Assembly (NCBI GenBank): GCA_025352045.1
Contig: JANXUD010000136.1
Coordinates: forward strand, 1 to 64,000
Direction: 5' to 3'
Origin: Gammaproteobacteria bacterium
Lineage (GTDB): Bacteria; Pseudomonadota; Gammaproteobacteria; Xanthomonadales; Xanthomonadaceae
DNA: 64,000 nt
The notes under the pieces were generated by a model, which saw only the letters and a program-made list of their open reading frames with translations, searched no databases and was not told the DNA's origin. Shown here one piece after another: positions 12,833-60,174 of this stretch. Each line of letters starts with the position of its first letter. The first letter of the stretch is position 1. The position numbers and the translations under genes were made by a program.

Positions 12833-14350
12833 TCAGGCGCTGCGCGTCTCGCGATAGAGCGGGCGCAAGCCCGCGTCGAGCCCCGGCAACTGCTCGGCGT
12901 AGCGCCGGCCCCGGCCGATGCTGCGCGCGTGCAGGGACAGCCCCATGCGCAGGGACGACCCATAGCGGATGCCGAGGAAGCCGCAGACCACGCGCAGCAC
13001 CATGTCGGGCTTGCTGACCAGGCTTTCGTAGTCGATGTCCATCAGCCGCCCGGGCAGGACGTGCTGCCAGTGCTGCATCAGCCGGTGGTACTGCAGGTAG
13101 TAGCGTGCCAGCGCGGCCGGGTCGTTGCTGGGCATGGCCGCTTCGCCACCGGCATGGGCGAGGATCGAGGCGCAGGTATCCATCGGATCCCGGCGCATGT
13201 GCAGCAGCCGGGCGCCGGGCAGGGCGCGGGCGATCAGCCCTGCCAACTGGAAATCCATCGGCCGGCTTTCGCAGACCAGCAGGGACTTGCGGCGCCCGCC
13301 GCCGGTGGCCGCCAGGAAGTCGCGGCCGAGCGCGTCGTAATCCAGTTGCTCCGGGCGGGCGAAGTCGCTCGACTCGAAAGGTCGCTGCGAATCGCGGCCC
13401 AGGGCGCGCGACAGCAGGGGCGCGAAGGCGTGCAGCTGGCCCAGGTGTTGCACGCCGGAATGGCGCGACAGCAAGTTGCCGAACAGGGCGACGCCGCTGC
13501 GCGGCATGCCGAACACGAACACCGGCGCGGCGACCGGGCGGGTCGCCGCGGGCGTGCGCACGAAGCGCTCGCCGCAGGCGGCGATCAATGCGTCGGCCCA
13601 GGCCTCGGGCGCTTCGCCGGCGAAGGGTGGACGGCTGGCGATGCCGGCCTGCAGCGCCGGCCACGCGACCGCCGGGTCGCCGTGGACATCCAGTTCGCGA
13701 AACAGGGCAAGCGAGGTGAGTTCGCGGTCCGACGCGCCAAGGGAAGAGTCCAGGCGTCGCTGCAGTTGCGCCCGGTGCGCGGGATCGTCGCGTCCGCGCA
13801 GGCAGGCCAGGGCCCAGTGGGCCTTGGCGTGCGCCGGGTTGAGTGCAAGGCAGGTGCGCAGGTCCTGCTCCGCGCCCTCGGCCTGCCCGAACTGGCGCCG
13901 CGCCAGCGCGCGATTGAAGTAGATCGATGGCTGGCGCGGATCGAGGGCGATCGCCTGGTCGAACAATTCCAGGGCAAGTGACTGTTCCTCCAGCCGGGCC
14001 AGGACCACCGCCAACGCGTCGATGACGACGGCGCTGCCGCGCGGCAGGGACAGGGCGCGCATGGACACCGTGCGTGCCGGCTCGACCAGGCCGCAGGCGA
14101 GCAGGCAGCGTGCGTGGTGCGCCAGCAGCTCGATCTGCTCCGGTTCCGTGGCCAGCACGCGCTCGACCAGGGCCAGCGCCGCCTGGTGGCGCCCGCGGCG
14201 CGCCATGACCATAGACAGCCGGAATTGCCCCGGCCCCGAGTTTGGCTCGCGGGCCAGGAAGGTTTCGAAATTGGCCTGCGCGGCTTCCATGTTCCCCAGT
14301 CGGAAGTGGCCCATCCCGCGCTGCCAGAGCTTCCCCGCCCGGCTGTCCAT
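12833..14350 (-). CDS. TPR-repeat sulfotransferase family protein
   Basis: TPR-like N-half; FVFGMPRSGVALFGNLL (PSB-loop-like) and LLHMRRDPMDTCASI (3'-PB-like); CGFLGIRY near C-terminus. Confidence 0.85.
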   Translation of the reverse strand: MDSRAGKLWQRGMGHFRLGNMEAAQANFETFLAREPNSGPGQFRLSMVMARRGRHQAALALVERVLATEPEQIELLAHHARCLLACGLVEPARTVSMRALSLPRGSAVVIDALAVVLARLEEQSLALELFDQAIALDPRQPSIYFNRALARRQFGQAEGAEQDLRTCLALNPAHAKAHWALACLRGRDDPAHRAQLQRRLDSSLGASDRELTSLALFRELDVHGDPAVAWPALQAGIASRPPFAGEAPEAWADALIAACGERFVRTPAATRPVAAPVFVFGMPRSGVALFGNLLSRHSGVQHLGQLHAFAPLLSRALGRDSQRPFESSDFARPEQLDYDALGRDFLAATGGGRRKSLLVCESRPMDFQLAGLIARALPGARLLHMRRDPMDTCASILAHAGGEAAMPSNDPAALARYYLQYHRLMQHWQHVLPGRLMDIDYESLVSKPDMVLRVVCGFLGIRYGSSLRMGLSLHARSIGRGRRYAEQLPGLDAGLRPLYRETRSA

Positions 14351-14462
14351 GGATCGAGCATAGCGCGCCCGTAGCGGCCGGACGCCGCGCTGGCGCACAG
14401 ATTGCGCGTGCGCCCGGGCCGTGTTTGCGGGCAACTGTGCGCCAGGCAGGTAAAATGGCCGG

Positions 14463-16358
14463 ATGTCCCTGATCACCCTCCAGGACGTCGACCTCGGTGT
14501 CGGCGGTCCGCTGCTGCTCGAAAAAGTCACGCTCGCGATCGAACCCGGCGAGCGCATCTGCGTCGTCGGTCGCAACGGCGCCGGCAAGTCCACCCTGCTG
14601 CGCCTGGTCGCCGGCGAGATCGCGCCCGACGACGGCGAGATCCGCCGCTTCGGGAGTCGCATCGCCGGGCTGGCGCAGGAAGTGCCGGCCGACCTCGCCG
14701 GCAGCGTGTTCGACGTTGTCTCGCTGGGCCTGGGCGACGCCGGCGCGCGGCTGGCGCGCTACCACCACCTGTTGCACGGCGATGGCACCGCGCCAGGCGA
14801 AGGCATTGACCTGCATGCGCTGGGCGAACTGCAGGAGATCATGGAAGCCGCCGGGGACTGGAGCCTGCAGACCAAGGTCGAGCAGGTGATCACCAAGCTC
14901 GAGCTGCCGGAGGACGCCGAGTTCGCCTCGCTGTCCGGCGGCATGAAGCGGCGCGTGCTGCTGGCGCGCGCACTGGTCGCCGCCCCCGACCTGCTGCTGC
15001 TCGACGAACCGACCAACCATCTCGACATCGAGTCGATCGCCTGGCTCGAGGCCTTCCTGAAGAGCTACAACGGCAGCGTGATGTTCGTGACCCACGATCG
15101 CGCCTTTCTGCGCTCGCTGGCCACCCGGATTGTCGAGATCGATCGCGGTCGCGTCACTTCCTGGCCCGGCGATTACGACAACTACCTGCGCCGCCGGGAA
15201 GAGCGGCTGCACGCCGAGGCCCAGGCAAGCGCGCAGTTCGACCGCAAGCTGGCCGAGGAGGAAGTCTGGATCCGCCAGGGCATCAAGGCCCGGCGCACCC
15301 GCAACGAGGGCCGCGTCACCGCATTGAAGGCGATGCGCCGCGAGCGCAGCCAGCGCCGGGCGCAGGTCGGCAAGGTGCGCATGGAAGCCGCCGAGGCGGG
15401 CGCCTCGGGTCGGCGCGTGATCGACGCGAAGGACCTCGGATTCGGTTTCAGGGACAAGCTCATCGTGCGCGGCTTCGACACCCGCATCCAGCGCGGCGAC
15501 AAGGTCGGGCTGATCGGGGCGAACGGCTCGGGAAAGACGACGCTGCTGCGCCTGCTGCTGGGCGACCTGCAGCCGCAGGAGGGCGAGGTCAGGCTGGGCA
15601 CCAACCTGGAGATCGTGTTCTTCGACCAGTTGCGTGCGGGCCTGCGCGAGGACTGGAACGTGCTCGACAACATTTCCGAAGGCCGCGAGTTCATCGAGAT
15701 CAACGGCGCGCGCAAGCACGCCATGGGTTACCTGCAGGACTTCCTGTTCGCCCCCGACCGGGCCATGGCGCCGATCTCGCGCCTGTCCGGTGGCGAGCGC
15801 AACCGCCTGCTGCTGGCCAAGCTGTTCGCGCGTCCCTCCAACCTGCTGGTGATGGACGAACCGACCAACGACCTGGACGTGGAGACGCTGGAACTGCTCG
15901 AGGAACTGCTGACCGATTACCCCGGCACCCTGATCCTGGTCTCGCACGATCGTGACTTCCTCGACAACGTGGTCACCAGCTGTCTGGTGATGGAAGGCGA
16001 GGGCCGGGTCGGCGACTACGTGGGCGGCTACAGCGACTGGTTGCGCCAGCGACCGGCCGCTGCGCAAACCTTCATGCCCACGCCGCCGCCCGCCGTGCGC
16101 GCGCCGCCGCCCGCCCCGGCGCCTGCTGCGACCGCGCCGGCCAAGCGCAAGCTCGGTTACAAGGACCAGCGCGAACTCGAGCAGCTGCCCGCCCTGATCG
16201 AACAGCTGGAGTCGCAGCTGGGCACGGCCACCGCGGCGATGCTGCAGCCCGCCTGGCACCAGCGCGCGGCGGCGGACATGCAGGCCGACACCGTCGCCAT
16301 GGCCGAACTCCAGGCTCGCCTGGACCGCGCCTACGCACGCTGGACCGAACTGGAATGA
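14463..16358 (+). CDS. uup: ABC-F family ATP-binding protein (Uup-like)
   Basis: Two NBDs (GRNGAGKST ... LSGGMKRRVLLARAL; GANGSGKTT ... LSGGERNRLLLAKL) and a charged C-terminal domain. Confidence 0.92.
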   Translation: MSLITLQDVDLGVGGPLLLEKVTLAIEPGERICVVGRNGAGKSTLLRLVAGEIAPDDGEIRRFGSRIAGLAQEVPADLAGSVFDVVSLGLGDAGARLARYHHLLHGDGTAPGEGIDLHALGELQEIMEAAGDWSLQTKVEQVITKLELPEDAEFASLSGGMKRRVLLARALVAAPDLLLLDEPTNHLDIESIAWLEAFLKSYNGSVMFVTHDRAFLRSLATRIVEIDRGRVTSWPGDYDNYLRRREERLHAEAQASAQFDRKLAEEEVWIRQGIKARRTRNEGRVTALKAMRRERSQRRAQVGKVRMEAAEAGASGRRVIDAKDLGFGFRDKLIVRGFDTRIQRGDKVGLIGANGSGKTTLLRLLLGDLQPQEGEVRLGTNLEIVFFDQLRAGLREDWNVLDNISEGREFIEINGARKHAMGYLQDFLFAPDRAMAPISRLSGGERNRLLLAKLFARPSNLLVMDEPTNDLDVETLELLEELLTDYPGTLILVSHDRDFLDNVVTSCLVMEGEGRVGDYVGGYSDWLRQRPAAAQTFMPTPPPAVRAPPPAPAPAATAPAKRKLGYKDQRELEQLPALIEQLESQLGTATAAMLQPAWHQRAAADMQADTVAMAELQARLDRAYARWTELE

Positions 16359-48692: not shown

Positions 48693-49693
48693 GCGCCGCG
48701 CTGGAACAATGGCTGCAGGCGCGCTGGTACGGCGGCGAGCGTCCTGGCCTGGGCCTTCGTGCGCTGGCCGGCGGGTATCGCCTTGCCGGGGCGCTGGCGG
48801 CGCGCGGCGTGGTGTCGATCCGCGTCGGCGTGCCCGTGCTGGTGGTCGGCAACTTCACCGCGGGTGGCGCGGGCAAGACGCCGCTGGTGATCGCCCTGGC
48901 GCGTTGGTTGTTGGCCGCCGGCCGCCGGCCAGCCGTACTCAGCCGCGGCCACGGCCGGCGCGGGAAGGGACCCATGGAAGTGCAGGCGAAGACCCCGGCC
49001 TCGGAGTGTGGCGACGAGCCGCGACTGATCTTCGAGGCCACCGGCGTGCCGGTGTTCGTCGACGCGGATCGGGTCGCGGGCGCGGCGGCGGCGATCGCTG
49101 CCGGCGCCCGGGTCCTGGTCTGCGATGACGGCCTGCAACACCGGCGCCTGGCCCGTGACATCGAGATCGAAGTCGTGGATGGCGCGCGCGGCTACGGCAA
49201 CGGCCTGCTGCTGCCGGCCGGGCCGCTGCGCGAAGGCCCCAGGGCCTGCGACTTCCGCGTGGTCAATGGCGACGCGGCCAACGGCGTCGCGCGGCCCGGG
49301 GACTGGACGATGCAACTGGCGCCGCAGGCGGCGCGCGCGCTCGACGATCCGGCGCGGTCGCGCGCGCTCGCAGGATTCCGGGGCGCCCCCGCGGATGCCG
49401 TCGCAGCGATCGGCAATCCCGCGCGCTTCTTCGCGATGCTCCAGGCGCAGGGACTGGCCTTGCGCACGCATCCCTTTCCCGACCACCATGGCTTCGTCGC
49501 CGTCGACTTCGCGGGCATGCCCGGGCCACTGCTGATGACCTCGAAGGATGCCGTGAAGTGCCGCGGCCTCGGGCTTGCGGATGCCTGGGACATCGGCGTC
49601 GAGGCCGAGCTTGACCCGGGCTTCTACGAGGCGCTGGCGCGGCGGCTGGACGCGCTTGCCACGGCCGCGGGCGGACCCGATGCCCGGGCCTGA
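48689..49693 (+). CDS. lpxK: Tetraacyldisaccharide 4'-kinase
   Basis: [67 protein letters not shown]. Confidence 0.95.
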
Positions 49694-50456
49694 CTTCATC
49701 GTCGCCATCCCCGCGCGATTCGGCGCCACCCGGCTACCGGGCAAGCCCTTGCTGTCGATCGCCGGCGAGCCGATGATCCTGCACGTGGTCCGGCGCGCGC
49801 TCGCCGCGGGCGCGCTGCAGGTCGTGGTCGCCACCGACGATGAACGCATCGTCCGCGCCCTTGATCGCCAGCCGGTGACGGTGTGCATGACCTCGCCCGA
49901 GCACGCCTCGGGCACCGATCGCCTCGCCGAATGCGCGCGCCTGCTGCACTGGCCGGACGATCGCATCGTGGTCAACCTGCAGGGCGACGAGCCTTTCGCA
50001 CCGCCCGAGGGCATCCGCGCAGTCGCGCGCGTCCTCGCCGACTCGGAGGCGGAGATGGCCACCCTGGCCGTCCCGGTCGAAGACAGCGACACGCTGTTCG
50101 ATCCGAATGCGGTGAAGGTCGCCTGCGATGCCCGCGGCCATGCCCTGTATTTCAGCCGCGCGCCGATTCCCTGGCCGCGCGACCGCTTCGCGACGGACCG
50201 CGTCTCGCCGCCGCCGCCCGGTGCGCTGCGGCACATCGGCATCTATGCCTATCGCGCGGGCTTCCTGCAACGCTTCGCGGCGCTGCCGCGCGGCCGGCTG
50301 GAACAGCTCGAATCGCTGGAGCAACTGCGCGCACTGGAAGCCGGTGCACGGATCGCGGTGGGCATCAGTCCGGTGCCGTTTGCACCGGGCGTGGACAGCG
50401 CCGCGGACCTGGCACGCGCCGACCAGCGCGCCCGCGCGGACGCAGCCGCACGATGA
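49680..50456 (+). CDS. kdsB: 3-deoxy-manno-octulosonate cytidylyltransferase
   Basis: [53 protein letters not shown]. Confidence 0.95.
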
Positions 50457-50478: not shown

Positions 50479-51570
50479 GTGTCACCCGCAGTCGCCCTGG
50501 TCGACGCCTCGCAACCGGCGCGCTGGCGTGAAGCGCTGCGCGGGCTCCCGCATGCGTTCGGGCACGGCCCGGAATACGTCCAGGCCGCGGCCGATGTCGC
50601 GGCCGCTTCCGCGATGCTTTTGGTGTGGACGCGGGGTGCTGCGCGCGCCGCCTGCCCGCTGCTGGTCCGGGACGGCCCGTGGGGCCAGGAACTTTCGACG
50701 CCGCCCGGCTTCGCCGGGCTCACTTTGTCCGGCGATCCCCATGGCCTGGCCGCCGAGTGGACCGACGCATGCCGCGCACTCGGCGCCGTCTGCGCCTACA
50801 TCCAGCTTTCTCCATGGCTGGATCCGTCCGCCCTGTCGCCCGGCGCCTGGGCGACGCACGACGCGCGCATCGCACCCGCCGCGGACTGCCTGTTGTGGGA
50901 CCTGGCGCCCGTCCCCGAGACCTTGCTGGCCGGGATGTCGTCCAAGCATCGCCAACTGCTGCGCAAGTGGCTGCGTGGATCGCCACGGATCGTCGATGAC
51001 CAGGCCGAACTGCAGGCGCGGTTCCCGGCGCTGTATGCCGGCTTCATCGCGCGTCGCGCCGTGTCGCCCGCCTATCGCTACGACGCTGGCGCGCTGGCGT
51101 GCGTCCTCGGCGTGCCGGACAGCTTCCTGCTTGGCGCCCGCGGCGAGGATGGCGGCATCGAGACTGCCACCCTGTTCGTGTCCGCAGACGGTCGCGGCGA
51201 CAGCTTTCTCAATGCCGCCACGCCTATCGGGCGCGCGCATTCGCGCGGCTTGTACTGGCTGGGGGCGCTACGCCTGCGCGAGATGGGCGTGCGCGAACTG
51301 AACCTGGGCGGCGGTGTCGCCGGCGACGCGGGACTGGCGGACTTCAAGCAGCGCCTGGGCGCGATCCCGCGCGCGACGCAGGCAATCCACCAGGTGCTCG
51401 ACCGCCCGCGCTTCGCGCGTGCCTGCGCCGACGCCGGCCTGGATGCGGCTGCCCCGGGCGGCTGGTTTCCGCCCTGGCGGGGACCGGCGCCAACCCTTCA
51501 GGCTGGCGCGCAGACCAGCACTTGCTTGCGCGAGGAAGCCGAGGCGGGGGAGCGGTCGAAGTCGCCGTAG
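50479..51570 (+). CDS. FemAB/GNAT-like acyltransferase (BioF2-like)
   Basis: LLAGMSSKHRQLLRKWLRGSPRIVDD...LYAGFIARRAVSPAYRY...GLYWLGALRLREMGVRELNLGGGVAGDAGLADFKQRLGA; GTG start inferred. Confidence 0.7.
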   Translation: MSPAVALVDASQPARWREALRGLPHAFGHGPEYVQAAADVAAASAMLLVWTRGAARAACPLLVRDGPWGQELSTPPGFAGLTLSGDPHGLAAEWTDACRALGAVCAYIQLSPWLDPSALSPGAWATHDARIAPAADCLLWDLAPVPETLLAGMSSKHRQLLRKWLRGSPRIVDDQAELQARFPALYAGFIARRAVSPAYRYDAGALACVLGVPDSFLLGARGEDGGIETATLFVSADGRGDSFLNAATPIGRAHSRGLYWLGALRLREMGVRELNLGGGVAGDAGLADFKQRLGAIPRATQAIHQVLDRPRFARACADAGLDAAAPGGWFPPWRGPAPTLQAGAQTSTCLREEAEAGERSKSP

Positions 51571-52289
51571 TCGGCGACGATGCGCAGCCCGGCATCGGCA
51601 AGCAGGCGGCGGACCTCGTCCGGATGGAACTGGCGGATTGCGTAACGCGTGGCGGCGATCGGTCGCGAAGGATCGGCCAAGTCCACCAGCCGCCACTCCA
51701 GGTGCAGGATGCTGGCGGCTTCGTCGAAGCGCGCGTCCTCGCGCAGCTCGAGCCGCCGCGCGCCATCCACGATGCTGCGCGAAAGCGAGTCGCGCCGCTC
51801 GCGGCGCAGGACATCGAGGTTGGGCCGGTAGATGTCGAAGGCGTAGCGGCCATCGGGCGCGAGCAATGCGCGCGCGGCCGAGAACGCCATGCCGAGGTCG
51901 CGCGGCGTCGGCAACATCTGCAGGGTGTTGAAGCAGCAGAACACCAGGTCGAAGCTGCCGTTTACGGGCGGCGCGCGCAGGTCGCCCTCGACCCATTCGA
52001 CCTCCGGGAAGATCAGGCGCGCCTTGTCCAGCATGCCCGCGGCGGCGTCCACCCCGACGGCGTGGATCGGTTCGCCCGGATGCGCGGCGCGCAGGCTGGC
52101 ATGGATCGGCGCCAGCACCACGCCGGTGCCGCAACCCAGTTCCAGCACCGAGCGATCGCCCGGCCTCGGCAGGCTTCCATAGAAGTCGAGGAACGGGGTG
52201 CGGTCGCCTTCCACCAGGTCGTAGTGGTCGGCCCAGGCATCATAGGGCGATGCCGTCGGCTGCAGGTGGTCGCTGCCAGGTCGGGTCAT
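51498..52289 (-). CDS. Class I SAM-dependent methyltransferase
   Basis: SPYDAWADHYDLV; VLELGCGTGVVLAPI; FDLVFCCFNTLQMLPTPRDL. Confidence 0.88.
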   Translation of the reverse strand: MTRPGSDHLQPTASPYDAWADHYDLVEGDRTPFLDFYGSLPRPGDRSVLELGCGTGVVLAPIHASLRAAHPGEPIHAVGVDAAAGMLDKARLIFPEVEWVEGDLRAPPVNGSFDLVFCCFNTLQMLPTPRDLGMAFSAARALLAPDGRYAFDIYRPNLDVLRRERRDSLSRSIVDGARRLELREDARFDEAASILHLEWRLVDLADPSRPIAATRYAIRQFHPDEVRRLLADAGLRIVADYGDFDRSPASASSRKQVLVCAPA

Positions 52290-52296
52290 GGGGAGA

Positions 52297-53043
52297 TCAT
52301 GCGCCAGGCGAAGGCGAAGGCGCGGGCGCGGGCGATTCGGCGCGAAGCGAATCGGCGATGATCGCATCGGCGATGAACGCGGGATCGTCCTGCATCAACG
52401 CGGGCAGCAACTGCATTCCCGGGCCCGTCCAGGCCGGCAGGAATTCCAGCGCGATGCCGGCCTGGGCGAAGCGGGCCGGATCGTAGAGGGCGCGGCCACC
52501 CGGCGCATTCAGGTAATGGCTGGCGCCCAGCGCGGAAGCGATCGCCAGCACGCGGTCCTGGCCCCGCAGCGCCGCGGGCAGGCCCAGCGAGGAACTGCGG
52601 CAGAACTTGCAGTCGATGCCGAGCAAGCCGGCAGCCAGCCGCAATCCGTCCTCGAGGTAGTCGACCACGCCATCGAGCGGTGCGTGCAGGAAGGCGCGCA
52701 GGCTCGCGGCCGCGGTGCCGGTCGCGGCGGCGATCCAGGGCAGGGCGGCCAGCCGGGAATCCATGCGCGCCCGCGCATCGTCGGCGAAGGCGAGGTCGGC
52801 GATGCGCACATCGCGCGGCTGTGCGGCGAGCGGCAGCGTCAGCCAATGCGCGCCGGCGGGCCCGGGCACCTCGCAGCGATGCACGCGTCCCCGCCGCGGG
52901 AACTGCACGCAGTCGAACAGCACGAACTGGTCGGCCTGCGCCAGCAGCCGGAAATAGCCTGCGTAGGGGAAGAAGTAGGGCTGCATCACGGCGATGCGGT
53001 GCTGCCGGGTGGCAGCGCGGCCGGCAAGCGTCGGCGCGCTCAT
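52297..53043 (-). CDS. WbqC family protein
   Basis: RIAVMQPYFFPYAGYFRLLAQADQFVLFDCVQFPRRGRVHRC. Confidence 0.88.
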   Translation of the reverse strand: MSAPTLAGRAATRQHRIAVMQPYFFPYAGYFRLLAQADQFVLFDCVQFPRRGRVHRCEVPGPAGAHWLTLPLAAQPRDVRIADLAFADDARARMDSRLAALPWIAAATGTAAASLRAFLHAPLDGVVDYLEDGLRLAAGLLGIDCKFCRSSSLGLPAALRGQDRVLAIASALGASHYLNAPGGRALYDPARFAQAGIALEFLPAWTGPGMQLLPALMQDDPAFIADAIIADSLRAESPAPAPSPSPGA

Positions 53044-53963
53044 GGCGTCGTGCGCGCCGCGAGGCCCGGGCCGCCGGGCACGTCGTCGCCGCGCCAGTGG
53101 CGGAACATCTCCTCCGCGGTGTGCAGTACGCCTGCCGCGCGCAAGGTGGCGAACTGCTGGTCATCGAAACACTGGTGGCGGAATTCGGCGGCCACAGCCT
53201 CGGGTGTGTCGAGCGCCAGCCAGCGACGCCAATGCCAGGCAAGGTGCTCGCCAAAGTAACCGTCGTGCACCTCGAACACGCGCCGGATATTGGCGACCTT
53301 GCGCGCGAATCGTTCTGCCGTGGTGAATGGAACGTGGGCGATGAGCAGGTCGTCGGCAACCCCGCGACGCAGGCCGTCGCCGATCCCGTCCACCGCATGC
53401 CCGCCGTCGTGCATGTTGCCGATGCAGCCCGGGCGGGCTGCGACCTTCGGCACCGGCACGCCGCGGATCCAGGGCAGGCCGGCGCCGGCGTCCAGTCGCT
53501 CGCGGAAGTCTTCGACCGGTTGGGTCACCAGCCACAGGCCCTGCGCCGCGCGCGGCGGTGCGTGATCGGGCGTCATCAACCCGCCCTGCGTGGACAGCGG
53601 CACGTTGTAGCGATGCACGGTCAGCACGTCGTTGTCGCGCAGGCTGGCGCAGTCGCGCAGGCGACCCGAGGCGGGGATCCAGAATTCATCGGCGTCCAGG
53701 AAGATGACGCGGTCGGCGCCGCTGTCACGGGCGATGGCGACGTTCAGCCGGGCCCATCCCTGCGCATCAGGGTCCTGGTCGCTGAAGCGGTGCAGGCCCA
53801 GGTCGCCATCCGCGCGGTGCGCTTCGAGCCACTCCAGGCTGCCGTCAGTCGAGCCGGCATCGATCGCGTCGATCCGCTCCACCCCGATCGCGCGCAGCTG
53901 CGACATACAATGGGGCAAGAGGTCGAGTTCGTCCTTGACCCCGAGTATCGCGACGATCTTCAT
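53040..53963 (-). CDS. Glycosyltransferase family 2 protein
   Basis: KIVAILGVKDELDLLPHCMSQLRAIGVERIDAIDAGSTDGSLEWLE; RVIFLDADEFWIP. Confidence 0.88.
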   Translation of the reverse strand: MKIVAILGVKDELDLLPHCMSQLRAIGVERIDAIDAGSTDGSLEWLEAHRADGDLGLHRFSDQDPDAQGWARLNVAIARDSGADRVIFLDADEFWIPASGRLRDCASLRDNDVLTVHRYNVPLSTQGGLMTPDHAPPRAAQGLWLVTQPVEDFRERLDAGAGLPWIRGVPVPKVAARPGCIGNMHDGGHAVDGIGDGLRRGVADDLLIAHVPFTTAERFARKVANIRRVFEVHDGYFGEHLAWHWRRWLALDTPEAVAAEFRHQCFDDQQFATLRAAGVLHTAEEMFRHWRGDDVPGGPGLAARTTP

Positions 53964-53989
53964 TGCGCTTGCATGGACCCCGTGAACCG

Positions 53990-55330
53990 ATGACGACAGA
54001 CGCCAGCATGATCGCAGATTTGCTCGAGCTGCATGCCGCGGAGATTCCGGTCTGGGGTCATTTGCCTGCGGCGATGCGATTCAAGCAGGCGGTGGTGGCG
54101 CGGCTTGGGCCCGAGGCCGCGTTCGCCGCCTGTCGTCCCCACCTGGGCGTGCCCGGGCTGGATCGCCTGCAGGCGCTGCCGGTGCGCGCGATGCATGACG
54201 CGGCGCGCGAAGCCGGTGCGATCGTCGGCGAGCTCTGGGAGGGCGGCCGCCGCTTCGAGCGGCCGTCGATGCGCGTGCATGGGCCGCATCGGCACGGGCA
54301 GGCGTCGCTGCCCGGCGTGGACCGCTCGGCCTGGCTCGCGCGTTTCGAACAGGTCCGCCTGCGCGGCCGCTCCTCGCTGCTGCACCGGGGCGACGAGGTA
54401 CTGATGGACTACGAAGGCGCCGAATACGCCAGCCTGCCGGACAATCCCGGCTACGACCCGGGCGTGCTGCATGCCGATGGCCGCCGCTTCTGGCACATGG
54501 ACGCCGAGGCGCCCGCGCTGGAGGTTGGCGAGGCCTACCTGCTCAGCGGCAACCACAGCGTCGACTTCGGCCACTGGATCACCGAATACCTTCCGCGGCT
54601 GGCGCTGGCGCGCCTGGCCGGACTGCCGGCGGCGATGCCGGTGATCGTCGACCACATCGTCCCCTCGACCATCCTGGATGCGCTGCCCCTGCTGCTGGGG
54701 CCGGAGACGCCGGTGATCCGCCTGCCGCATCTGTCGGTGGCGTCGGTGGAACGCCTGTGGTGCGCGTCCAATCCGGTCCACACCGGCTTCTACCCGACGC
54801 AATGGAACGACGCGACCTGGTCGGCGATCGGCAGCGAACCGTCGCACCTGGCGACGCTGCTGCGCGAACTGCTGCGCATGTTCGGTCCCCAGGTCGAAGT
54901 CGCTACGGCCAGCGACCGCGTATTCCTCGCCAGGAAGGCGACGCGCAGCAAGAAGAAACTGCTGAACCATGGCGCCATCGAGGCATTGGCGGAGGCGCGC
55001 GGCTTTCGCATCGCGTATCCGGAAGATCTTTCGCTGGTTGAACAGGTGCGCCTGGTGCGCAACGCGCGTTTCCTGATCGCGCCGGAAGGATCCAACGCCC
55101 TGCTGTCGTGGTTCGCACGGGCTGGGGCGCGGGTGGCGATGCTCAGCCCGACCTATGCGCTGCCCCTGCTCGACGTGAATGCCATCCTGCGCGAACTCGG
55201 CGTCGACCTCACCGTGGTCACCGGAGTGGACACGCCGACCGAGGAGGAGTTCTGCCCGTACTGGAACGATTACACGATCGACGCGGGCGGATTCTCGCGC
55301 TTCCTCGACGACTGGCTGGCGGGCGCCTAG
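53990..55330 (+). CDS. Glycosyltransferase family 61 (DUF563) protein
   Basis: GNHSVDFGHWITEYLPRLALARL; FLARKATRSKKKLLN; APEGSNALLSWFARAGARVAMLSP. Confidence 0.82.
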   Translation: MTTDASMIADLLELHAAEIPVWGHLPAAMRFKQAVVARLGPEAAFAACRPHLGVPGLDRLQALPVRAMHDAAREAGAIVGELWEGGRRFERPSMRVHGPHRHGQASLPGVDRSAWLARFEQVRLRGRSSLLHRGDEVLMDYEGAEYASLPDNPGYDPGVLHADGRRFWHMDAEAPALEVGEAYLLSGNHSVDFGHWITEYLPRLALARLAGLPAAMPVIVDHIVPSTILDALPLLLGPETPVIRLPHLSVASVERLWCASNPVHTGFYPTQWNDATWSAIGSEPSHLATLLRELLRMFGPQVEVATASDRVFLARKATRSKKKLLNHGAIEALAEARGFRIAYPEDLSLVEQVRLVRNARFLIAPEGSNALLSWFARAGARVAMLSPTYALPLLDVNAILRELGVDLTVVTGVDTPTEEEFCPYWNDYTIDAGGFSRFLDDWLAGA

Positions 55331-56361
55331 TCCAGCGATTGCAGCACCAGCTCCAGGTGGCCGAGGTGGACCATCAGCCGGTTGCCGTGCTGGTAACCGT
55401 CATAGCAGTTCTCGTACACGACCATCGAATAGCGATGCCGGAGCAATCGGCAGATGTCGAACACGCCCGGGTTGATGAACAGGGGCGAGAAGCATTCGAT
55501 CACGTCCGAGCGCGGACGCTGGAACATGGCGTGCACGAAGCCCGCCCCGTGCGGACCGCCGAGCGCGACCGCGGCATGGGCAATGCGCAGTTGCTCCAGC
55601 ACCGGACGGCCGCCCATGTCCAGCACCTCGAAGCCGTGGCGCGCGACCAGCGCATGCACCTCGTCGGCGTTGACCAGCTCGCGCCCGGCGTTGTTCACCG
55701 CCAGGCGCCGTTCCAGCCACACGCGCCGGGAGGGCGCGGGGACCGATCCGGCGAGCGCGCCGTCCAGCAGGCGCTGGCGCAGCAGTTCGAACAGGCCGGG
55801 GTGGTCCGTCAGTGAGCGCGCGGTGATCGCATCGATGTACCAGGCGTGGGCGAAGCGCACGGGTACGTCCAGTCCGGCGAGGATGCGTTCGCGCGCAATG
55901 CCGAGGACTTCGAGGAACTCCGCGGCGAACGGCGGCAGCACGCCGAAGGCGTAGCAGCCGGTGAAGCCGGAGGCTTCCAGCGCCACGACCTTCACCAGTT
56001 CCTCGGTGATCCAGTGGAAAAAGTTGCGCGAATAGAAATTGCCGACGATGCAGGCCTCGCGCGGGTCGTCCACCACCTCGAAGGGAAGGCGGAAGGCAGC
56101 GGTCTTGCCCTGGAAATCCCGGCCAACTTCGAACGCCAGGCTCCATGTGTCGTAGACGGATTCGAGCGGAACCCTGGCGTCGCCGGCGAGCTGCAAGCCC
56201 AGGGCCGGCAGGTACAGCACGCCCGGAACGCGGCCCACTCGCAGGCCCGGATCGCCGATCGCGCCGGTGGCGATGCGCTCGGTGTGCAACCCGGCGGCCT
56301 CGCCGGAAAACACGGAGGTCGTCACCAGGAGCGCAGGATCGAGCCCCGGGTGCAGGCTCAC
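55327..56361 (-). CDS. Glycosyltransferase family 61 (DUF563) protein
   Basis: GNFYSRNFFHWITEELVKVVALE; VWLERRLAVNNAGRELVN; LGGPHGAGFVHAMFQRPRSDVIECFSP; GTG start inferred. Confidence 0.82.
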   Translation of the reverse strand: MSLHPGLDPALLVTTSVFSGEAAGLHTERIATGAIGDPGLRVGRVPGVLYLPALGLQLAGDARVPLESVYDTWSLAFEVGRDFQGKTAAFRLPFEVVDDPREACIVGNFYSRNFFHWITEELVKVVALEASGFTGCYAFGVLPPFAAEFLEVLGIARERILAGLDVPVRFAHAWYIDAITARSLTDHPGLFELLRQRLLDGALAGSVPAPSRRVWLERRLAVNNAGRELVNADEVHALVARHGFEVLDMGGRPVLEQLRIAHAAVALGGPHGAGFVHAMFQRPRSDVIECFSPLFINPGVFDICRLLRHRYSMVVYENCYDGYQHGNRLMVHLGHLELVLQSLD

Positions 56362-58253
56362 CGGCCCGCGCCCAGGGCCTGGGCGACCGCGGCCACCACG
56401 CGCACCACCGACAGCGCGTCCAGGTCCGGCGCCATGGGCAGCCCAAGCAATCGGGGTGCAAGTGCGTCCGTCACCGGCAGTGGGTGGCCAGGCGTGTCGG
56501 CAAACCAGCTTTGTCGCCGCAGGCCCAGGCCGTACCAGTGCCGGTAATCGATCGCCGCCGCGCGCAGCACGTCCTGCACGCGGTTGACCTCGGCAAGGTC
56601 GCGGCATTCCAGCAACCGGTAGCTCGAGCAGATCAAAGGCGCCCCATGGCTGCGTCCCGACAGGCCGGCGGCATCGAAGGCCGCGTCATAGGCGGCGTGC
56701 ACGCGGGCGAAGGCCGCCTGTTTCGCGGGCCAGGCATCGAGGTCGGCCAGCCCGACGGCTGCATGGTATTCGCTGAGCTTTCCGTTGGTGCTCGGGCCGC
56801 GACTGTCGCGGCTGTGGTGGAATCCGAAATTCAATGCCTGGCCGATGCGTTCGAGCAACTCCGGTTCGGTACAGGCCACGCAACCGCCTTCGCCGCTCGA
56901 CAGGCTCTTGGTCGCGTGCAGGCTGAACATCACCGGGATGGCCCCGATCGCGCGCCCGGGCGCGGCCAGCGCAGCCTCGAGGCCCGCGGCGCCGTCGATG
57001 ACCACAGGGATGCCGGTCCGCTCGCGGAAGCGCAGCCAGGGCGCCTGCGGCACGGGGCGACCGTACGCGGAGACGGGGATGACCACGCCGACCCGGGACA
57101 GGTCGGTGCGCGCTAGTGCATCGGGATCTAGCATCCAGTCGTCGGCGGATACATCGGCCAACCAGGGGACGAAACCGCATTCCTGCACGGCAACTGCGGT
57201 GGCGACAAACGTGTAGGAGGGAATCAGGGCATAGGCCCAGGCCGGATCGGCCCGTCCCGCCGCGGCGAGCACGGCGGCAAGCAGTGCCGCCGTTCCGCTG
57301 CTGGCGGCGACCACGCCACGGCCGGGCGCGCCGAGCAGGCTGGCGAGGCGCTGCTCGAATTCCGTCGCCAGCGGGCCGAAGTTGGAATAGATCCGGTGGT
57401 CGTCGATCCGCTGCAGGTAGGGCAGCAGCGCCCCGGCCTTGGGCAGCTGTGGCCGCAGGACCGGGATGGGGCGCAGGCCGGCGTTGCCGGCATCCTGGGC
57501 GGACTTCGCCATGCGTTGCGGGTCGGAGGCGGGCGCCGCCGCGCGTACGCGGCCAGGCGCGGACGCCAGCTCGCCGCGCGGCGCCGCCGTCGGCGCCTGC
57601 ACGTCCGCGTGCAGGGTGTCGCGCCAGGCATAGCAACTGAACTCGTACAGCCCGTAGTCCGCGCGCAGGCGCACATGCCGTCCCGCCAGGCCATGCAGCA
57701 GGGCGGCCATGTCGTCCATCGACGCGTGGTAGAGGTCGTCGCGCTCCCAATCCACGTGCCGGGACATGACGTTGAAGGCCAGGCCGCGACGCACGTGCGG
57801 CCAGGCGGCGCGGATGGTGGAGTCCAGGAATTCGCGCATCTGCGCAGGGCTGACCACGTGGCGCACGGTGAACAAGCCGTTCGCCACCAGGTAATCGCAG
57901 TCCAGCACGGACAGGTCGACCCCGGGCGCGGTGATGTCGAGTTCGACGAAGCGTTCGCCCGGGAACTTGGCCCGCGCCAGGGCCAGCGCACGCTGGGACC
58001 GGTCCACGCCCACGTAGTCCACGCGCTCCAGCCGGCGTTCGCGGATCCGGGTCAGCAGTTCGCCAGTGCCGCAGCCCAGGTCGCAGAGCAGCAGCCGGCC
58101 GGGCGGTGCGCCTTCGAGCAAGTCCAGCATCACGTCGTAGCGGGTCTGGCGATCGCGGGCGTTTGGCCACAGCGCGCCCTGCGGCGTGTCGCCGTGCAGT
58201 TCGAGGGCACGATCGTAGTGGGCCAGCAGCAGGTCCTCGGGGCGATCGTTCAT
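56358..58253 (-). CDS. Fusion protein: SAM-dependent methyltransferase + DegT/DnrJ/EryC1/StrS aminotransferase
   Basis: N-half LLLCDLGCGTGELLTRIRERRLERVDYVGVDRS; C-half IYSNFGPLATEFEQRLASLLGA, MFSLHATKSLSSGEGGCVAC, NGKLSEYHAAVGLADLD; single uninterrupted frame. Confidence 0.88.
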   Translation of the reverse strand: MNDRPEDLLLAHYDRALELHGDTPQGALWPNARDRQTRYDVMLDLLEGAPPGRLLLCDLGCGTGELLTRIRERRLERVDYVGVDRSQRALALARAKFPGERFVELDITAPGVDLSVLDCDYLVANGLFTVRHVVSPAQMREFLDSTIRAAWPHVRRGLAFNVMSRHVDWERDDLYHASMDDMAALLHGLAGRHVRLRADYGLYEFSCYAWRDTLHADVQAPTAAPRGELASAPGRVRAAAPASDPQRMAKSAQDAGNAGLRPIPVLRPQLPKAGALLPYLQRIDDHRIYSNFGPLATEFEQRLASLLGAPGRGVVAASSGTAALLAAVLAAAGRADPAWAYALIPSYTFVATAVAVQECGFVPWLADVSADDWMLDPDALARTDLSRVGVVIPVSAYGRPVPQAPWLRFRERTGIPVVIDGAAGLEAALAAPGRAIGAIPVMFSLHATKSLSSGEGGCVACTEPELLERIGQALNFGFHHSRDSRGPSTNGKLSEYHAAVGLADLDAWPAKQAAFARVHAAYDAAFDAAGLSGRSHGAPLICSSYRLLECRDLAEVNRVQDVLRAAAIDYRHWYGLGLRRQSWFADTPGHPLPVTDALAPRLLGLPMAPDLDALSVVRVVAAVAQALGAGR

Positions 58254-58320: not shown

Positions 58321-60174
58321 ATGCCACCGACCCCGGCCATTCCCCGTTTCGATGGTCGCGAGTTCGTCCGTGACCTCACCAGCGCCCCGGGTGTGTACCG
58401 CATGCTGGCCGCCGACGGCGCCACCCTGTACGTGGGCAAGGCGATGTCGCTGAAGAAGCGGGTCGCCAACTACTTCCGCGCCGACCAGCCCTCGCTGCGG
58501 ATCGCGACGATGGTGGCGCAGATCGCCGCGATCGACGTGACCGTGACGCGCACGCCGGGCGAGGCCCTGCTGCTGGAAAACCAGCTCATCAAGTCGCTCA
58601 AGCCGCGCTACAACGTGCAGCTGCGCGACGACAAGAGTTACCCCTATCTGTTGCTGACCGAGGAAACCTGGCCGCGGGTGGCCTTCCATCGCGGCCCGCG
58701 CTCCCGCGCCGGCCGCTATTTCGGCCCCTATCCCGGCGCCGGCGCGGTGCGCGAGACCATGGACCTGATGCAGAAGATCTTCCGCCTGCGCAGCTGCGAG
58801 GACAGCGTGTTCCGCAACCGCAGCCGGCCCTGCCTGCAACACCAGATCGGCCGCTGCAGCGCGCCCTGCGTCGGCCTGGTGGCGCCGCGCGACTACGATG
58901 CGGACGTGCGCCGCGCCGCGTTGTTCCTGGCCGGGCGAAGCAGCGAGCTGGTGGACGAACTGACCCGCGGCATGGACGCGGCCAGCGCCCGGCTGGAGTT
59001 CGAGTCGGCGGCCGCGCTGCGTGACCAGATCGCCGGCGTGCGCAAGGTGCAGGCACGGCAGCACGTGGAGGGCGAGCAGGTGGAGATGGACGTGCTCGCC
59101 TGCGCGATGGAGGCAGGCACGGCCTGCGTGCTGCTGCTGGGATTCCGCGACGGCATGAACCAGGGCACGCGGCCGTTCTTCCCGCGGCTCAATGGCGCCG
59201 ACACGCCCGAGGAAGTGTTGGGCGCCTTCGTCGGCCAGTACTACCTGGAGCGCAAGCCGCCGCGCGAGATCGTGCTCAGCCACGAAATCCCCGACCTGGA
59301 GCTGTACGAGGCCGCGTTCTCGCAATCGGCCGGGCGCAAGGTCGAACTCAAGCCGAGCGTGCGCGGCGAACGCGCCCGCTACCTGGAACTGGCGCAACGC
59401 AATGCCGTGCACGCCCTGCAAGCCCAGGCCAACAGCGCCGCGGCCCAGGCGCGGCGCTTGCGCGACCTGCAGGACCTGCTGGACCTGCCGGCAGCGCCGA
59501 CGCGGATCGAATGCTTCGACATCAGCCACACCATGGGCGAGGCGACGGTCGCCTCCTGCGTGGTGTTCGATGGCGACGGCCCGGTACGCAGCCAGTATCG
59601 GCGCTTCAACATCCAGGGCATCACGCCCGGCGACGACTACGCGGCCATGCGCCAGGCGCTGGATCGGCGTTTCAAGCGCGCGGTGGAGGAGGGCGTGCTG
59701 CCGGACCTGCTGCTGATCGACGGCGGTGCCGGCCAGTTGCAGCAGGCGCGCGAGGTGCTGGCTTCGCTCGGCGTGCAAGGCGTCGCCATGGTCGGCGTGG
59801 CCAAGGGCGAGGAGCGCCGTGCCGGCCACGAAGCGCTGGTCTTTCCCGATGGCCGGGAGCTGCGCCCCGGCGCGGAGTCACCGGGCTTGCAGTTGATCCA
59901 GCAGGTGCGCGACGAAGCCCATCGCTTCGCGATCACCGGGCACCGCGGCAGGCGCGCGAAGGTACGCGAAACGAGCCGGCTCGAGGACATCGCGGGCATC
60001 GGGCCGCGCCGCCGCGCGAGCCTGCTCAAGCATTTCGGCGGCTTGGCCGGGCTCAAGCTCGCCGGGGCGGAGGAAATCGCGGGGGCGGCGGGCGTCAGCA
60101 CCGCCCTTGCCGCGCGCATCTATGCTTCACTACACGGGCTGGAAGCACCGGCCTCGCCGCCGACGGAGCCCTGA
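58321..60174 (+). CDS. uvrC: Excinuclease ABC subunit C
   Basis: GVYRMLAADGATLYVGKAMSLKKRVANYF; IGRCSAPCVG; ECFDISHTMGEATVASCVVF; C-terminal HhH. Confidence 0.96.
   Translation: MPPTPAIPRFDGREFVRDLTSAPGVYRMLAADGATLYVGKAMSLKKRVANYFRADQPSLRIATMVAQIAAIDVTVTRTPGEALLLENQLIKSLKPRYNVQLRDDKSYPYLLLTEETWPRVAFHRGPRSRAGRYFGPYPGAGAVRETMDLMQKIFRLRSCEDSVFRNRSRPCLQHQIGRCSAPCVGLVAPRDYDADVRRAALFLAGRSSELVDELTRGMDAASARLEFESAAALRDQIAGVRKVQARQHVEGEQVEMDVLACAMEAGTACVLLLGFRDGMNQGTRPFFPRLNGADTPEEVLGAFVGQYYLERKPPREIVLSHEIPDLELYEAAFSQSAGRKVELKPSVRGERARYLELAQRNAVHALQAQANSAAAQARRLRDLQDLLDLPAAPTRIECFDISHTMGEATVASCVVFDGDGPVRSQYRRFNIQGITPGDDYAAMRQALDRRFKRAVEEGVLPDLLLIDGGAGQLQQAREVLASLGVQGVAMVGVAKGEERRAGHEALVFPDGRELRPGAESPGLQLIQQVRDEAHRFAITGHRGRRAKVRETSRLEDIAGIGPRRRASLLKHFGGLAGLKLAGAEEIAGAAGVSTALAARIYASLHGLEAPASPPTEP

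Follow-up and report, generated by a model that had tools for sequence, protein, structure and literature searches.

The DNA window examined here comprises the first 64,000 nucleotides of contig JANXUD010000136.1 from a gammaproteobacterium of the family Xanthomonadaceae (genome of 3.0 Mb in 141 contigs). Seven genes, P0001 to P0007, lie between kdsB and uvrC in this window, and we consider that on balance they represent a mobile module that makes a modified amino sugar and attaches it to a surface glycan. All seven open reading frames (ORFs) are open, with the motifs of their families intact. A sequence-only reading of this DNA had named those families and noted their mixed strands, and Pfam matches together with the motifs bore it out. 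It had also described neighboring genes that overlap or nearly touch; we found 4-bp overlaps at the P0003/P0004 and P0006/P0007 junctions and a gap of 22 bp between the kdsB stop codon and the GTG start codon of P0001. P0001 and P0002 converge and share 73 bp at their 3′ ends (window positions 51498 to 51570), and the tail of P0001 after approximately residue 335 is not conserved. The left flank consists of msbA-lpxK-kdsB and the right flank of uvrC-pgsA and tRNA genes for Gly, Cys, and Leu (msbA, lpxK, and pgsA were named by eye from the sequence).

Table 1. Genes of the kdsB-uvrC interval and its flanks, with coordinates in the window
Gene	Position	Strand	Description
kdsB	49680..50456	+	Left flank of interval
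P0001	50479..51570	+	FemAB/FemX-like double-GNAT transferase, 363 amino acids, GTG start
P0002	51498..52367	-	S-adenosylmethionine (SAM) methyltransferase; start probably ~52289
P0003	52297..53043	-	WbqC-family protein
P0004	53040..53963	-	GT2-type glycosyltransferase (PF13704)
P0005	53990..55330	+	GT61 glycosyltransferase
P0006	55327..56361	-	GT61, 344 amino acids, GTG start overlapping P0007 stop (read from junction sequence)
P0007	56358..58253	-	Methyltransferase (residues ~1-225) fused to DegT-family pyridoxal phosphate (PLP) sugar aminotransferase (~255-631)
uvrC	58321..60174	+	Right flank; divergent from P0007, 67 bp apart

A Pfam scan of the seven interval genes revealed no dehydratase, flippase, or polymerase. 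The interval does not combine a flippase and polymerase or an ABC exporter with nucleotide-sugar synthesis, and it is not a complete O-antigen cluster, as the sequence-only reading had argued. No strongly hydrophobic 19-residue segment is present in any of the seven proteins (maximum of 1.97), and none of them therefore appears to be membrane embedded. Foreign composition of the genes was considered and rejected: their mean GC content at the third codon position (0.858) matched that of the other window genes (0.860, p = 0.36) and gives no signal of recent transfer.

Among the relatives compared, uvrC was located in 81 of 81 genomes and kdsB in 80 of 81, and the interval was measured where both genes lay on one contig. 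The longest of 25 same-genus intervals were those of genome G025 (8668 bp) and the window genome (7867 bp), followed by intervals of 2413 and 2029 bp and others down to 57 bp. The prediction of an inserted module was supported, with 7867 bp in the window genome versus at most 2413 bp (that is, ≤2.4 kb) in 23 of the 25 same-genus genomes; in 20 other family members the interval spanned 153 to 2013 bp. Gene content was read in 20 fetched intervals, of which the genus contributed 12, the family seven, and the order one. A thioredoxin-NHL protein of approximately 470 amino acids was encoded in 18 of these, the exceptions being G005, whose interval is nearly empty, and G069, whose interval is short, and within the genus its gene was present in 11 of 12 intervals, often with a phosphatase gene. 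A low-molecular-weight phosphatase gene was clear in several intervals and missing in others of approximately 1.5 kb. The thioredoxin-NHL protein had no match in the window genome, and neither the window nor the G025 region contained a significant remnant of it or of the phosphatase. Given this lack of matches in the window genome, the usual genes are gone, with a 7.8-kb glycan block in place. Retention of the displaced phosphatase elsewhere in the genome was considered and rejected, the sole PF01451 match appearing ArsC-like by eye and not significantly matching the G026 phosphatase. The kdsB-uvrC interval emerges as an entry place for glycan genes in this lineage. Other exchanges at this site were also seen. 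In two congeners (G005:C72 and G024:C6) the interval has lost its content, with kdsB and uvrC 57 and 185 bp apart, respectively, and in G008 (L107:2094-2705) an ORF of 203 amino acids with much lower GC content (0.47, 0.46, and 0.52 at the three codon positions) lies between kdsB and the thioredoxin-NHL gene, at the place of the phosphatase in other relatives.

In G025, the path from kdsB to uvrC comprises genes for a FemAB-like protein, a GT61 protein, a WbqC protein, a GT2 protein, a methyltransferase-GT61 fusion, a methyltransferase-aminotransferase fusion, and a stand-alone methyltransferase. Amino acid identities were 49% to P0001, 55% to P0005, 59% to P0003, 42% to P0004, and 67% and 57% to the two parts of P0007, whose fusion of methyltransferase and aminotransferase is conserved. 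Gene order and strands differ in part: in the window P0005 is inverted relative to its neighbors, and G025 has its stand-alone methyltransferase at the uvrC end. The presence of the arrangement in a second genome makes an assembly error unlikely, and the length of the interval together with the related genes that G025 carries at this site is more than chance.

Related sets also recur at greater distance. In Ideonella oryzae, relatives of P0001 (32% identity), P0003 (61%), P0004 (44%), P0005 (42%), and the aminotransferase (33%) lie within 7.5 kb, together with a second GT61 gene and a methyltransferase gene, and are followed by sulfotransferase genes, another GT61 gene, rmlD, rmlB, and rmlC. 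In G874, which belongs to another class of the same phylum, relatives of P0001, P0002, P0003, P0005, and the aminotransferase (27 to 53% identity; 34% for P0005) are found on one 11-kb stretch, with the counterpart of P0002 (46%) adjoining the WbqC gene. The sequence-only reading had set co-occurrence against scatter beforehand as its test, and the genes proved to lie together in G025, Ideonella, and G874 rather than to be scattered; the recurrence of related sets in Ideonella and in another proteobacterial class indicates that they form a module. Among 399 sampled genomes of the phylum, the top three aminotransferase genomes other than the window genome itself (G874, G944, and G959) were also the top three WbqC genomes, with the genes within approximately 6 kb of each other; this coincidence was spotted after the lists had been seen, and its nominal probability of ~1e-7 is descriptive only. 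A GT2 profile applied to 299 genomes of the family matched only the window genome and, in part, one other, suggesting that the set is rare near this lineage; G025 was not among the matches and presumably lies outside the 299-genome sample. At four loci with GT2 relatives in the class sample (G663, G532, G484, and G386), tblastn detected no other gene resembling those of the module, these recurrence searches being of first-look depth and absences therefore uncertain. Transposase-like ORFs adjoin the module in G874 (L181:15976-19651) and may show how it moves.

The aminotransferase part of P0007 belongs to the DegT/DnrJ/EryC1 superfamily (PF01041, 165.7 bits) and contains an HATK motif with the PLP lysine at residue 446. 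Its best equivalog was DesI (TIGR04427), with a score of 143.8 bits versus a curated cut-off of 650 bits. DesI was likewise the best equivalog for four related aminotransferases, scoring 149 bits in G025 and, for the part of the protein submitted, 409 bits in Ideonella, where the gene sits near rmlB, rmlD, and rmlC. The best solved relatives in PDB were 3ju7 and DesI itself (2po3). DesI aminates dTDP-4-keto-6-deoxyglucose. The sequence-only reading had proposed that precursors are made elsewhere, and we found rmlB, rmlA, rmlC, and rmlD together on contig C96 of the same genome (rmlA, rmlC, and rmlD by eye); with this complete dTDP-rhamnose set as the likely source, the likely substrate dTDP-4-keto-6-deoxyglucose would be available.

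Both methyltransferases of the window, P0002 (Methyltransf_25, 58 bits) and the NH2-terminal part of P0007, carry an LxGCGTG motif. The sequence relatives of P0002 in PDB included YunM, CypM, CcbJ, and CalS10, of which the last three are N-methyltransferases. The stand-alone methyltransferase of G025, which shares approximately 30% identity with P0002 over 105 residues, matched TylM1 and DesVI (E of 1e-50) as well as CalS10. TylM1 and DesVI are N,N-dimethyltransferases of dTDP-amino sugars. This enzyme type in the G025 counterpart strengthens the earlier proposal that the sugar is methylated and favors the amine as the target, with N-methylation being the favored prediction and O-methylation a less likely one. 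With regard to the glycosyltransferases, P0004 matched Glyco_tranf_2_4 (PF13704, 41 bits) and has an LDADE motif, whereas P0005 and P0006 matched Glyco_transf_61 (PF04577; 70 and 58 bits, respectively) and carry GPHGAG or APEGSN motifs.

P0001 itself had no Pfam match, including to FemAB (PF02388). Two of its homologs matched Acetyltransf_6 (PF13480), and that in G874 scored 20.5 bits, below the FemAB cut-off of 24 bits. We obtained a structure model of P0001 from an alignment of four sequences (pLDDT of 74). Its nearest Foldseek matches were the aminoacyl-tRNA-dependent peptide synthases Sbb17 and Sba18 (E of 3e-13), followed by FemX (E of ~1e-10, TM score of 0.58 to 0.70), which assigns P0001 to the double-GNAT FemX fold. 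Lys290 is invariant across five homologs and is part of an FK pair in four of them. In DhpH-C, Lys329 is essential and Phe328 also contributes, and the FemX-type enzyme Orf11 glycylates the amino sugar streptothrisamine from Gly-tRNA (PMC12945691). P0001 thus shares the fold of the FemABX transferases FemX, Orf11, and Sba18, and the FK pair of the four homologs resembles Phe328-Lys329 of DhpH-C, whereas its low identity (19 to 22% to Sbb17 and Sba18, 10 to 14% to FemX) sets it apart from them. The modeled fold and the invariant lysine raise, without proving, the possibility of tRNA-dependent aminoacylation by P0001.

P0003 is a member of the WbqC family (PF08889, 125 bits versus a gathering score of 21). 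A sequence search found no solved homolog. A function could not be drawn from structure: the protein weakly resembled BshC as well as tRNA synthetases of class I, with BshC as the best PDB fold match (E of 0.022, TM score of 0.38) followed by TyrRS, and these matches were too weak to be accepted. Matches in a viral fold library carried no names. The literature terms the WbqC family functionally uncharacterized and lists WbqC and DegT as neighbors in Bacteroides. The present locus offers a recurring, testable gene set around WbqC as well as a concrete hypothesis for this protein and its FemX-fold partner.

From the families and motifs, the site and content shared with G025, the recurrence, and the rmlBACD set, we infer the following reactions, order, and acceptor. 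RmlA and RmlB, encoded on C96, would supply dTDP-4-keto-6-deoxyglucose, which the aminotransferase half of P0007 would convert to a dTDP-4-amino-4,6-dideoxyhexose of the viosamine or thomosamine type. The fused methyltransferase of P0007, P0002, or both would methylate the sugar, most likely on nitrogen, and P0001 would acylate or aminoacylate the amino group in at least part of the product, and WbqC would carry out a step related to this one. The glycosyltransferases P0004, P0005, and P0006 would then work in the cytoplasm, adding sugars to a surface glycan that is exported by a route of its own, with the core or O-chain of lipopolysaccharide (LPS) being the likeliest; given the absence of a flippase or polymerase from the interval, cytoplasmic addition to an otherwise exported glycan is the simplest arrangement. 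A more specific version, which we regard as doubtful, is that P0001 uses aminoacyl-tRNA as a donor and loads its amino acid onto the amino sugar that P0007 produces, that WbqC is a second ligase for amines of this kind, and that this Gram-negative bacterium bears a surface glycan with tRNA-derived aminoacyl groups. If true, such a step would add surface amino sugars to peptidoglycan, lipids, and antibiotics as targets of tRNA-dependent aminoacylation.

Several observations weigh against this scheme. P0002 and P0006 are without close counterparts in G025. The aminotransferase of P0007 falls far below every equivalog cut-off, and its substrate could be another keto-sugar; the methyltransferase fused to it has only weak solved relatives. 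A P0007-related aminotransferase in G944 lies near a pseudaminic acid synthase, and a WbqC-DegT-methyltransferase set is described in a flagellar locus of Dickeya (PMC9650423). Position is the sole tie of the module to LPS. Adjacency to kdsB is weak evidence for the LPS core, given that relatives carry other genes at this site and that the module has other contexts elsewhere, and LPS core as the acceptor is unproven.

It is quite possible that the same chemistry serves an O-chain, capsule, or exopolysaccharide built by other loci and that kdsB-uvrC is a mere insertion site, a view that overlaps the scheme above. The variability of the interval, which contains the thioredoxin-NHL gene with or without a phosphatase gene in most relatives, is nearly empty in G005 and G024, and holds the low-GC ORF in G008, speaks for it, as does the placement of the module elsewhere, near rml and sulfotransferase genes in one case and next to transposase-like ORFs in another. 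Further glycan loci are present in the genome: C45 carries an ABC-2 membrane protein gene together with GT4 and FkbM genes, and C122 carries a gene for an RgpF protein. Pseudomonas stutzeri likewise has WbqC in its EPS273 locus (PMC5532660). The placement of P0001 closely after kdsB in both congeners (the 22-bp gap here and a 4-bp overlap of the FemAB-like gene with kdsB in G025) nevertheless suggests coexpression with Kdo synthesis.

Decoration of a protein such as flagellin is an unlikely alternative, albeit one with known precedents. The viosamine island of Pseudomonas syringae (vioA, vioM, vioT, vioS, vioB, vioR, and acp) decorates flagellin, and its vioA, vioM, vioB, and vioT are paralleled by the aminotransferase, methyltransferase, acyl transfer, and glycosyltransferase functions predicted here (PMC3927599). 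In Dickeya zeae WH1, a strain-specific insertion between fliA and fliC likewise comprises seven genes, including those for a SAM methyltransferase, WbqC, and a DegT aminotransferase; the passage describing it names no FemAB-like, GT2, or GT61 gene, and the comparison is one of descriptions (PMC9650423). With these two islands on record, a protein acceptor has to be taken seriously, and the grouping of WbqC with DegT and methyltransferase genes is in itself nothing new. Related genes also lie near a PseI-type synthase gene in G944. The kdsB-uvrC interval, however, lacks acyl supply genes like vioS, vioR, or acp, and no flagellar or pilus genes were recognized around it. A pathway in which desosamine-type enzymes glycosylate a secreted small molecule is very improbable: P0007 has DesI as its best model, the G025 methyltransferase matches TylM1 and DesVI, and P0001 resembles the antibiotic enzymes Sba18 and Sbb17, but P0007 scores far below the DesI cut-off, the interval has glycan-type glycosyltransferases and no polyketide or peptide synthase, GT61 and WbqC are families typical of polysaccharide loci, and the Ideonella context is one of rml and sulfotransferase genes.

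Neither the enzyme families nor this general kind of island is new. Like the viosamine island, the window locus is compact and combines a sugar aminotransferase, a methyltransferase, N-acylation, and glycosyltransferases, with dTDP-4-keto-6-deoxyglucose as the presumed substrate. The island has no listed FemX-fold protein or WbqC, whereas the window locus has no acyl-carrier genes, contains GT2 and GT61 genes and the methyltransferase-aminotransferase fusion, and occupies a different site with probably a different acceptor; the likeness to a viosamine-type island appears to be a family resemblance only. In the literature searched, we found no description of the combination of a FemX-fold protein, WbqC, GT2, GT61 proteins, and a fused methyltransferase-aminotransferase or of the kdsB-uvrC site, nor of a possible use of charged tRNA for decorating a sugar in such a locus, which is limited evidence of novelty.

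Two further observations concern the distant relatives. In G944, a gene for a PseI-type pseudaminic acid synthase (505 bits) is present on the same 20 kb as the WbqC gene and the P0007-like aminotransferase gene (L182:2825-3880 and 13840-16069), the latter adjoined by a possibly PseG-like protein. Proteins of approximately 300 to 400 amino acids with similar openings (such as WxxTHAQxPT), grouped by eye and without a Pfam match for that at L183:7591-8721, recur beside WbqC and the aminotransferase at this locus as well as at L182:12161-13090, L005:14135-15250, L007:14001-15113, and L013:5309-6505.

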